This document shows, one piece after another, positions 16,170 to 46,643 of a stretch of DNA of 46,643 bases (positions are counted from its first letter, which is position 1; every line of letters starts with the position of its first letter). The translations under genes were made by a program, and so were the position numbers. The DNA comes from Acidobacteriota bacterium (GTDB taxonomy: Bacteria; Acidobacteriota; Thermoanaerobaculia; Thermoanaerobaculales; Sulfomarinibacteraceae). Location of the stretch: the NCBI GenBank assembly GCA_024641545.1, contig JAHECW010000020.1:1-46643 (forward strand), written 5' to 3'. Under the pieces are notes generated by a model. That model searched no databases. It saw nothing but the letters and a program-made list of their open reading frames with translations, and was not told the DNA's origin.

Positions 16170-16222
16170 TTTTATTCGCCTGATTTCTTCGAGCCCCGCT
16201 CGAAGAAATCAGGCGAATAAAA
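16170..16222. repeat. Perfect 25-bp inverted repeat in the parE-parC gap
   Basis: Arms 16170-16194 and 16198-16222 are perfect reverse complements around a 3-nt loop (CCC on the plus strand). On the minus-strand transcript the hairpin forms 12 nt after the parE stop and ends 12 nt before the parC ATG, leaving the parC Shine-Dalgarno free. No U-tract follows on either strand, so it does not look like an intrinsic terminator. A role as mRNA stabiliser, processing site or attenuator is possible. Confidence 0.9.
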
Positions 16223-23513: not shown

Positions 23514-23938
23514 CTTCCTTCCGGGAGCACCGGCCTTCCGGGCCGCCTTTGGTGACCCGGCGTCGCGCATTGCGGTGCGGGCGTCTCGCCCGCAGGGAGG
23601 CGTCGCGGTTCGGCACCATCGCGCGCGGGGAGGGCAGCCGTTTCTTACGGCTCCGGCCTTCTGGTCCGCCTTTGGCGGCCCAGCGTCGCACGGGCAGCCC
23701 GGTCACGAGAGGCGGGAGGAAGAGCGGTGACCGCGCTGCCCGCGCACCGGCGGCCTCGTGTCGACCGGGAGAAATGCACGAGGTCGCTTTCGCCGTGGGT
23801 TGCCCGGCGTCGGCATTGTGCGGAGCTTGTCGAGCTGCCGGAGGCTTGTTCCTGCACAATGCCGCGCCCGGCACGCCCCGGTGGGGAATAGTCTTCGGCT
23901 TCCCGGGGCTCTGGACGCTGCCCCGGTCGCCCGCGCCG
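23514..23938. repeat. Mosaic hairpin-repeat array, locus 1
   Basis: The gap between the D-threonine aldolase-like and acyl-CoA synthetase genes holds no gene and is an array of short palindromic modules shared with the loci at 29.5 and 46 kb. In order they are: a hairpin CCGGGCCGCC...GGTGACCCGG (about 23537), TGCGGGCGTC...CGCCCGCA (about 23577), CTGGTCCGCC-TTT-GGCGGCCCAG (about 23661), a 16-bp stem CGGGCAGCCCGGTCAC (23691-23706) with 23727-23742, and a long stem 23801-23821 with 23854-23873 whose core is GGCATTGTGC / GCACAATGCC. All are followed by the shared tail ACGCCCCGGTGGGG. Confidence 0.85.
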
Positions 23939-27142: not shown

Positions 27143-27213
27143 TGCCTCCCGTCATCCCGGGACAAGCGTTTCTGGGCTGTGAACCCCCGTGATTCCAAGG
27201 GTGCGGAGCCAAC

Positions 27214-27345
27214 GTCGCAACCACCAAGACACCAAGACACGAAGGATGCACCAAGAACGCGTGGAGATGCTCGGCCATTGGCCGGGCATTTCCACGTCCT
27301 TTGTGATTGCCTTTGAGCCGTTGAGCCTTCGTGGTTGTGGCGTGC
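27214..27345. repeat. Inverted CACGAAG-type intergenic element with central hairpin (copy 2)
   Basis: The left arm (about 27215-27258: ACCACCAAGACACCAAGACA, CGAAGGATGCACCAAGAA) and the right arm (27298-27343: CCTTTGTGATTGCC, TTGAGCCTTCGTGGTTGTGG) are inverse to each other. Between them CGTGGAGATGCTCGGCCA (27260-27277) pairs with 27279-27296 over all 18 positions, two of them G-U. The apex reads CGGCCA-T-TGGCCG. Confidence 0.75.
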
Positions 27346-29449: not shown

Positions 29450-29703
29450 CCCGGAGCCCCGGCCTTCCCGCGTGCCGAGATCCGTTGTGGGGCCGGCGCC
29501 GCCGCCGGCCTGTCCGGCCTTCCGGGCGGCCCAATGTGGTGCGGGCGTCCCGCGAGGGTTGCCCGGCGTCGGCATTGTGCTCGTGGTTTCAGGTTGCCGG
29601 AGGGGTTGTCGTTGTGCACAATGCCGCGCCCGGCACGCCCCGGTGGGGTTTCGTACTTGGCTTCCCGGGGCTTTGGTCGCGGTAGCTGCCCCGGTCGCGG
29701 GGT
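29450..29703. repeat. Mosaic hairpin-repeat array, locus 2 (fused modules)
   Basis: The gap between the remnant and the end of epmA contains no gene. It carries a GC block (TTGTGGGGCCGGCG, CCGGCCTGTCCGGCCTT; 29487-29530) that recurs at 46382, then TGCGGGCGTCCCGCGAGGG, which is half of the TGCGGGCG hairpin joined directly to the next module. That next module is the long stem 29560-29580 with 29616-29635 (core GGCATTGTGC / GCACAATGCC), with the shared tail ACGCCCCGGTGGGG after it. Confidence 0.8.
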
Positions 29704-30762
29704 TCACGCCCGATCGACCGGGAACGCGATCACCTCGTCGATCCGTTCCGCCCGGGCGGCGAGCATGACCAGCCGGTCGACCCCGAGGGCGACGCCGGCG
29801 CAGTCCCCGAGTCCGTGCTCGAGGGCGGCGAGCAGGCGCTCGTCGAGCGGCACCTCGGGCAGGCCGCAACCGCGGCGGGCGGCGAGGTCGGCGTTGAACC
29901 GCCGCCGCTGCTCGGCCGGGTCGCTGAGCTCGTGGTAGCCGTTGGCGAGCTCGACCCCGTCGATCCACGCCTCGAATCGCTCGGCGACCGGGGGCGGGCC
30001 CGGCTGAATCCGGGCGAGAGCCGCCTGCGATGCGGGAAAGTCGTAGATGAAGGTGGGGCCGTCGCGGCCGAGCTCGGGCTCGACGATGTGGCTCAGGAGG
30101 AGCTCGAGCCAACCATCGCGATCGCCGCCGAGATCGGGGATCGCGTCGCCGAGAAGAGCGCGGGCGCGTCCCGCGAGCGCGGCCGCAGTCGATACGTGTG
30201 GATCCAAACCCACCTGGCGTTGAAACGCCTCGGCGTAAGTGATCTTCTCGCCGCTGCCGCTGCCGCTGCCGCTGCCACCTGCCGCTGCCCCCGTCACCGC
30301 CGCGGCTCCTGCCGACGGCCGCTGTCCGTGCTCACCGTCTCCGCCGCTGCCGAGCACCGCCGCGAAGAGCCCCGCGACCTCGTCCATCAGCCGGTGGTGA
30401 TCCCATCCCGGTCGGTACCACTCGAGGATGGTGAACTCGGGGTTGTGGCGGCTGCCCGCCTCGCCGTCGCGAAAGGCCTTCCCGAGCTGGTAGATGGGAC
30501 CGCTGCCGGCGGCGAGCAGCCGTTTCATCGCGAACTCGGGCGAGGTCTGGAGCCAGAGCGTGCGGCCGCCGTCGTGGCCGGGGCCGCGATAGCGGGTACT
30601 CAATGCCGCCAGGTGGAGATCGGTGACCGGCGCCGACCCGAGCACCGGCGTCTCGACCTCGAGCACCTCGCGATCGGCGAAAAACCGTCGGATCTGCTCC
30701 AGAACGCCTGCTCGTAGTCTGAGGTTCTCAAGAGAAGCGGTGGGCCGCCAGTCGGTGGTCAT
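29704..30762 (-). CDS. epmA: Elongation factor P (R)-beta-lysine ligase
   Basis: 352 aa, a class II lysyl-tRNA-synthetase-like catalytic core without the anticodon-binding domain. EpmA adenylates (R)-beta-lysine and attaches it to EF-P. Motif 2 is TSPEFAMKRLLAAGSGPIYQ, then FRDGEAGSRHNPEFTILEWYR. The end reads CAGVALGVDRLVMLAARAERIDEVIAFP (motif 3). Residues about 138-172 are a Gly/Ser/Ala-rich insertion (GSGSGSGSGE) encoded by a hexanucleotide repeat; it falls between conserved blocks. The ATG at 30762 has GATAAT 6 nt upstream. It lies downstream of efp on the same strand, with a repeat element between them. Confidence 0.93.
   Translation of the reverse strand: MTTDWRPTASLENLRLRAGVLEQIRRFFADREVLEVETPVLGSAPVTDLHLAALSTRYRGPGHDGGRTLWLQTSPEFAMKRLLAAGSGPIYQLGKAFRDGEAGSRHNPEFTILEWYRPGWDHHRLMDEVAGLFAAVLGSGGDGEHGQRPSAGAAAVTGAAAGGSGSGSGSGEKITYAEAFQRQVGLDPHVSTAAALAGRARALLGDAIPDLGGDRDGWLELLLSHIVEPELGRDGPTFIYDFPASQAALARIQPGPPPVAERFEAWIDGVELANGYHELSDPAEQRRRFNADLAARRGCGLPEVPLDERLLAALEHGLGDCAGVALGVDRLVMLAARAERIDEVIAFPVDRA
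30249..30276. repeat. epmA: Hexanucleotide microsatellite inside epmA
   Basis: Four to five copies of GCCGCT, encoding Ser-Gly repeats on the minus strand. Gain or loss of units would change linker length without a frameshift. Confidence 0.8.
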
Positions 30763-30774: not shown

Positions 30775-30825
30775 GCGCACCCCGACAGGCGTTGCCTGAT
30801 AGCCGAAGAGTCATGACCATCGCAG

Positions 30826-30950
30826 AAACCACGAAGACTCGAAGACACAAAGAAATCACCACGTCCGACAGACGGGTCGGCCAAAGGCCGACCCGTCTGT
30901 CGCCTCCTTTGTGATGTCCTTCGTGACTTGGTGTCTTCGTGGTCGCGATG
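30826..30950. repeat. Inverted CACGAAG-type element with perfect 17-bp hairpin (copy 3)
   Basis: The left arm 30826-30852 (AAACCACGAAGACTCGAAGA) and the right arm 30903-30950 (CTCCTTTGTGATGTCC, GACTTGGTGTCTTCGTGG) are inverse. In the centre CGACAGACGGGTCGGCC (30866-30882) is perfectly paired with 30886-30902 around AAA. The hairpin apex again contains GGCC. The element separates efp from epmA. Confidence 0.85.
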
Positions 30951-30976
30951 AGCAGTGCGTACGGAGGCTGCGGAGA

Positions 30977-34044: not shown

Positions 34045-34050
34045 TCCCGC

Positions 34051-34103
34051 GTCCGAGTCCGAGTCCGAGTCCGAGTCCGAGTCCGTATCCGATCCCGATC
34101 CCG
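34051..34103. repeat. Hexanucleotide microsatellite (CCGAGT)n upstream of the NFACT-R gene
   Basis: About five perfect and several decayed CCGAGT units. On the minus strand the phase that joins the NFACT-R frame reads Asp-Ser repeats. It lies just upstream of the putative -10, so length changes could alter promoter spacing. Confidence 0.8.
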
Positions 34104-46007: not shown

Positions 46008-46643
46008 TTGTGGCGCGGGCGTCCCGCCCGCAGGATGCTCTGTGTCCTGGCACCATCATGTACTGGCGCGGGCAGGGCAGCCGCTTCCTTCGACTCCGGC
46101 CTTCTGGTCCGCCTTCGGCGTCCCAGCGTCGCGCGATCAGCGTGGTCGGAGAGCAGGACGGGGAGGACTGCGACCACGCTGATCGCACGCCGGCGGCCTG
46201 TTTCGCTGCCGGGAGAGATGCACCGGGAGGTTGTGCCGCGAGGGTTGCCCGGTATGACAATGTGCGGGAGAGGGCGCAGAGCCGGCAGGCTTCTGGGGCA
46301 CATTGTCAAACCCGGCACGCCCCGGTGGGAGGTTTGCCGCTGACCCGGGCGGTGTCGCGGCCGCACCGGGTGGCCAAGGTCCATTGTGGGGCCGGCGCCC
46401 CCGCCGGCCTGTCCGGCCTTGCGGGGGGGCCATTGTGGTGCGGGCGTCCCGCCCGCAGGATGCTCTGTGTCTTGGCACCATCGGGCACCGGCTCGGGCAG
46501 GGCACGCGGCTTCCCGGGGCTCCGGCCTTCTGGTCCGCCTCCGGCGGCCCAGCGTCGCGCGATCAGCGCGGTCGGAGAGCAGAACGGGAAGGGCTGCGAC
46601 CACGCTGATCGCACGCCGGCGGCCTGTTTCGCGGCCGGGAGAG
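46008..46643. repeat. Mosaic hairpin-repeat array, locus 3
   Basis: Module order, left to right: GCGGGCGTCCCGCCCGC (about 46017), CTGGTCCGCC hairpin (about 46104), 16-bp stem GCGATCAGCGTGGTCG (46133-46148 with 46171-46186, perfect), linker CGGCGGCCTGTTTCGC, long stem 46246-46265 with 46298-46317 (core GACAATGTGC / GCACATTGTC), GC block 46382-46435. The order then restarts: TGCGGGCG hairpin (46440), CTGG hairpin (46529), 16-bp stem (46559-46574 with 46597-46612, one mismatch), and the linker up to the edge. The second half is a close copy of the first. Confidence 0.88.

Follow-up and report, generated by a model that had tools for sequence, protein, structure and literature searches.

A dispersed three-hairpin repeat in one family of Acidobacteriota: conserved pairing, changing sequence and likely exchange of single hairpins

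If the two arms of a repeated hairpin change their sequence together from copy to copy, what is being conserved, and by what means do the copies come to differ? The question arises from a 46,643-nucleotide stretch of Acidobacteriota DNA (the window), corresponding to contig C19 of a Thermoanaerobaculales-type genome of 5.38 Mb in 310 contigs. A hairpin recurs there three times. In copy 1 the inner arm GGCATTGTGC (23812–23821) pairs with GCACAATGCC (23854–23863), and copy 2 has the same arms at 29571–29580 and 29616–29625. In copy 3 they read GACAATGTGC (46256–46265) and GCACATTGTC (46298–46307). Both arms have changed together at two positions, G-C to A-T and T-A to A-T; these changes agree to the base with those given in a preliminary description of the window, as do the arms and their coordinates. 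The flanks TTGCCCGG...CCCGGCACGCCCCGG, also described there as conserved, are identical in all three copies. Set 30–60 nucleotides apart (TTGCCCGG-N30-60-CCCGGCACGCCCCGG), the same pair of flanks was counted 30 times across the genome, as against 0 for a reversed control. Together with the covariance-model scores given below, this places the recurrence of the hairpin beyond chance.

How far does the hairpin extend? The stem continues past the limits originally drawn for it, as TTGCC/GGCA and GGG/CCC pair too, so that the hairpin, here called hp3, spans 23792–23881, 29551–29643 and 46237–46325, in each case on the plus strand. The folded form, CCG-N-GGG-T-TGCC-[C]-GG-inner stem-loop-inner stem-CC-[C]-GGCA-CG-CCC-CGG, is a single long hairpin. 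It contains a C.C mismatch that is constant and, next to a bulged C, a T.G pair. Its feet read CCG(N)GGGTTGCC and GGCACGCCCCGG. Copy 1, a member of the training set of covariance model R1, scores 103 bits against that model (E 3.4e-17); its C.C mismatch lies at 23805/23869 and its loop is about 32 nucleotides long. Copy 2 scores 90.8 bits (E 7.9e-15) and copy 3, with its different inner stem, 80.5 bits (E 7e-13).

A non-coding repeat unit of about 230 nucleotides, ordered hp1-hp2-linker-hp3, comprises three hairpins, and hp3 closes the series. The source genus and a second genus, g7, both arrange it as CCGGCCTTC-hp1-GCGTCG or GCTCGG-hp2-CGGCGGCC-linker-hp3, the linker being about 40 nucleotides long, and 45 composites in the source genome share the architecture, as do other genera. 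Copy 1 of the complete unit occupies 23653–23881 (plus strand). Its hp1 (CTGGTCCGCC TTT GGCGGCCCAG, 23661–23683, plus strand) corresponds to helices 1 and 2 of our alignment A3, on which its pairs were counted. Its hp2 (23687–23746, plus strand) has a stem of about 19 bp (CGGGCAGC.CGGTCA) and a purine-rich loop of about 21 nucleotides. The second complete unit, which contains hp3 copy 3, lies at 46096–46325 (plus strand; hp1 46104–46126, hp2 46130–46189), as placed by the R1 match of its hp3 and by sequence anchors. Direct repeats (D1/D4) and sequence anchors locate the start of a further unit at 46522–46643 (plus strand). This one stands in tandem with the preceding unit, at a period of about 425, and the contig end cuts it off after hp1 and hp2, before hp3. 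hp3 copy 2 lacks hp1 and hp2; as read from the sequence, its left side is joined to a GCGGGCGTCCCGC fragment. The window thus holds two full units, one unit cut by the contig end and one lone hp3. A short imperfect palindrome, GCGGGCGTCNCGCCCGC, is found upstream of the three-hairpin unit (23577–23593, 46015–46031 and 46440–46456), and GGCCGGCGCCNCCGCCGGCC, related to it, at 29491–29510 and 46390–46409.

How widely is the hairpin distributed? The preliminary description had proposed that copies be gathered here and in related genomes and a covariance model built. The covariance-model search found 81 copies in the source genome (5.4 Mb). Ten other genomes from its family had between 1 and 65 each. 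Forty genomes from outside the family gave none. In a wider pattern scan, the closest named records to carry this repeat were metagenome-assembled genomes (MAGs) of Thermoanaerobaculales and Holophagae; exact-pattern matches in Streptomyces and Verrucomicrobia have no comparable hairpin between the flanks and were set aside as chance. Contigs C38, C105, C176, C262, C287, C298 and C302, as well as the right end of the window, break inside or beside units. Since so many contigs end in this way, the true copy number of the source genome is probably above 81.

Is the pairing really maintained while the sequence drifts? In an alignment of 30 diverse hp3 copies (A1), 96.1% of the cells pair and eight pairs are changed on both sides. 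The doubly changed cells number 41, against a shuffled mean of 10.4, and none of 500 shuffles reached as high; one-sided changes are few by comparison. When the partner column was slid by one to three positions, pairing fell to 16–53%. The result extends to the whole unit. In the alignment of the source genus (A3, hp1 to hp3) 15 pairs are doubly changed in 85 cells (shuffled mean 29.5), 8 of the 19 pairs of hp2 (helix 3) among them, and in that of genus g7 19 pairs in 60 cells (shuffled mean 15.5), though the sequences in both are related and the counts are therefore not of independent events. Judged by distinct pair types, we read roughly two dozen double changes in g7 as a lower bound. Across genera the inner stem of hp3 is rewritten (GGCATTGTGC, GACAATGTGC, GGCTTTCATCG, GGCATTCTTCGC, GGCATTCCCC and others). 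Paired changes are seen in the outer stem too (GGGTTGCC/GGCACGCCC, GGATTGCC/GGCACGTCC, GCGTTGCC/GGCACGCGC, GAATTGCC/GGCACGTTC). The stems of hp2 are wholly different between genera (CGATCAGCGTGGTCG or CGGGCAGCGCGGTCA in place of TCATTTCCCGGAGGGG) and are paired in each. The earlier claim of pairing conserved through compensatory changes is strongly supported by many copies and genomes, and it reaches the outer stem, hp1 and hp2; the three copies of the window would have been insufficient for it.

Does conserved pairing mean selection, as was also claimed? At quasi-palindromes, template switching can overwrite one arm with a copy of the other, and it is documented to make compensatory changes in a single step (PMC8794818). 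The covariation could then be largely mutational, arising without selection in repeats that are inert debris, and the rarity of one-sided changes beside the 41 double cells of A1 fits that account. The irregularities of hp3 do not. Almost every copy, across several genera, retains the N.N mismatch (C.C in 24 of the 24 sequences of A3, A.A in some other copies), the T.G pair and the bulged C without correction. Loops, moreover, are almost never inverted (3 of 184 overall, 0 of 96 for hp3), but switching primed from the hairpin would spare the loops. We consider a purely mutational origin improbable. Because the mismatch and the T.G/bulge are kept, selection on the hairpin is likely, with the reservation that arm-copying also fits the compensatory changes themselves.

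Is it DNA or RNA that is selected? Pairing that exceeds shuffled and slid controls is what a structured RNA family would give, and it fits RNA and DNA alike. A multi-copy non-coding RNA, with its three hairpins arranged around a junction closed by GGCC/GGCC, would account for the covariation and for the conserved junction letters (CCGGCCTTC, CGGCGGCC), which resemble a classical RNA motif. RNAalifold predicts that closing helix in g7, and the hp2 loops are purine-rich on the plus strand (purine fraction 0.80 in the source genome, 0.64 and 0.65). An RNA selected on the plus strand would, on the other hand, show more G.T than A.C at positions with a single mismatch. Across the stems of hp1 to hp3 in three sets we counted 25 G.T and 38 A.C (21 and 24 in an earlier count), so that the excess of G.U expected on a transcribed strand is absent, which argues mildly against RNA. 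Rfam gave no match at the gathering score, only chance miRNA matches at E up to 1. Nor is there a bias in orientation to genes: the gaps around 46 copies in the source genome are tandem in 18 cases, convergent in 16 and divergent in 12, with no sense bias, an approximate count from a simple codon-based gene caller. The same lack of bias led us to reject a terminator or 3'-UTR element. Up to 81 copies, present or absent at orthologous sites, would also be unusual for a functional RNA. We regard the RNA explanation as unlikely, though worth keeping in view, and on the sequence evidence favour a role at the level of DNA.

How do the copies relate to one another? The preliminary description had contrasted the conserved stem with simple copying, and this is half right. 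Pairing is conserved, but the stem variants are subtypes that have been spread by copying, nearly identical hairpins being found in unrelated flanks. In g7, pairs of copies whose hp3 are at least 0.96 identical share 0.62 identity in the hp2 region and 0.54 downstream; pairs with unrelated hp3 share 0.66 and 0.53. The similarity falls off at the foot of the hairpin on both sides. Since near-identical hp3 thus lie in flanks no more alike than those of random pairs, the hairpins appear to travel, or to be converted, as modules. The signal of exchange is weaker in the source genome, where the flanks upstream of near-identical hp3 resemble one another somewhat more; even so, among pairs whose hp2 are nearly identical, half have dissimilar hp3. 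The identities of hp1, hp2 and hp3 are nearly uncorrelated in both sets (−0.15 to 0.14). At orthologous g7 sites, where the flanks are 82–87% identical, the unit is present and the hp3 subtype is often different (L109/L127/L130, L118/L247, L240/L258, L265/L274). One 76-nucleotide hp3 core is shared without change by two species at an orthologous site (L127/L130), and one of the two carries it at another site as well (L118). We conclude that compensation arose when the subtypes diverged, and that copying then spread them.

Are the units themselves mobile, and what might move them? The gap in the congener G001 that is orthologous to 23530–23938 of the window lacks the unit, as does the gap in G002 that corresponds to 29.3–29.7 kb. 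The repeat is thus non-coding, multicopy and polymorphic at orthologous sites, as a miniature inverted-repeat element (MITE) is. An attractive idea was that hp3 had inserted and duplicated a 5-bp CCNGG, since this would explain the N.N mismatch; CCNGG does flank hp3 as a direct repeat. The idea gained no support: five genomes yielded no empty hp3 site, so that insertion of hp3 into an existing unit was not seen, and the CCAAG...CATGG subtype, from which CCNGG is absent, does not fit. Clustering of the flanking open reading frames revealed no recurrent neighbour gene or transposase; the clusters inspected were ordinary genes or frames overlapping the repeat.

The closest known system is that of the REPINs of Pseudomonas, doublets of REP sequences that form hairpins. 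Their ends are conserved, the spacer between them folds into a hairpin and commonly carries compensatory changes, and they disperse with no genes of their own (PMC3116915). hp3 likewise has two conserved inverted ends and a hairpin-forming spacer with compensatory change. It is an intergenic hairpin of about 90–100 nucleotides, dispersed in tens of copies and in clusters. Could it then be a genuine REP or REPIN mobilised by a RAYT, a Y1 tyrosine transposase? Y1 genes do occur in most of these genomes, several element-free ones included, yet none was found in G008 or G018, drafts 88% and 79% complete with more than 60 copies each. Of 25 Y1 loci only one (L237) had a hairpin close by, and this was part of a separate unit lying past the Y1 gene. 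In the source genome, the Y1 genes that were read (L076, L077) are flanked by inverted repeats of their own (GTGCCACGTTCAGAATGCACCATTG and GGTGCCACCCTTAGCATTCAT), resembling the RAYTs with unrelated inverted repeats in a survey of tagged REPs, which also reports REPs without a dedicated transposase (PMC3733652). No GTAG or CGTC tag stands at the foot of the hairpin, CGTC occurring only inside some inner stems. These searches led us to reject the RAYT link, and mobilisation by a RAYT seems very improbable. Since the linked RAYT gene flanked by repeats and the tag, both defining for REPINs, are lacking, we do not file the unit as a REPIN, although it works like one; it further differs in its place within a three-hairpin unit, in its conserved N.N stem mismatch and in being exchanged independently of its neighbours.

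Other systems offer partial likenesses. The GTAG/CGTC-tagged REPs and BIMEs (PMC3733652) are also numerous palindromic intergenic repeats and also form convergent pairs of two subtypes, but their units measure 20–40 nucleotides with a tag at the foot, as against some 90 untagged nucleotides in hp3. Convergent hp3 pairs of two subtypes, BIME-like and about 160–190 nucleotides from start to start, are seen at L110, L120, L173, L188 and L192. The attC sites of integrons are recognised as folded strands with extrahelical bases. With their stem sequence otherwise free, such recognition would give the same pattern of covariation, but hp3 lies outside gene cassette arrays and has no R''/R' core (RYYYAAC...GTTRRRY), and attC was rejected on the absence of that motif. 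The bacterial MITEs ERIC, Nezha and RUP (listed in PMC3733652) are comparable in size, in lacking coding capacity and in being folded. The apparent difference of the hp3 unit from them is that no terminal inverted repeats in common with a resident transposase and no target duplication were seen, in draft MAGs in which insertion boundaries and target duplications cannot be read exactly.

On balance we lean, by somewhat more than an even chance, towards a non-autonomous dispersed repeat of REPIN or MITE type, confined to one family of Acidobacteriota, in which conservation and exchange act on the folded DNA. What is recognised would be the folded strand, with its arms, mismatch and bulge, and not the letters of the stem. 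Hairpins would be replaced as cassettes. Either the extruded hairpin would be the target of a trans-acting enzyme, or the DNA would break at the hairpin and be repaired from a second copy by way of the conserved outer arms (GGGTTGCC / GGCACGCCCC). Where both arms have changed, the change would persist because only hairpins able to pair remain substrates. It is a bolder and rather unlikely proposal that the unit represents a new mobile or recombining element, in which a single DNA hairpin, recognised by shape (arms, fixed mismatch, bulge), is swapped between sites, even of sister species, by an enzyme other than a RAYT.

These DNA repeats thus evolve with their structure conserved and their sequence free, in a phylum from which few repeats of the kind have been described. 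With hundreds of copies in some ten genomes, they are a natural data set for weighing shape recognition, break-and-copy repair and template switching as means of keeping palindromes paired. They also carry a warning: covariation among the repeat copies of one genome alone does not prove an RNA, and the copies are not independent observations.

The window contains other repeats. A different palindromic family (CCACCAAGACACCAAGACACGAAGG ... CTTCGTGGT) is present at 27210–27345 and 30825–30960; its central stem differs between the two copies and is self-complementary in each, the pattern of hp3 in an unrelated repeat. Hexanucleotide runs, (GAGTCC)n and (GCTGCC)n, lie at 34050–34092 and 30250–30290, and in other copies of the hairpin unit runs like (GCTGCC)n and (ACGGxC)n are often found just after its right end. 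At 16170–16222, between two minus-strand genes, a perfect 25-bp inverted repeat with a 3-nucleotide loop (TTTTATTCGCCTGATTTCTTCGAGC) is probably a strong terminator.
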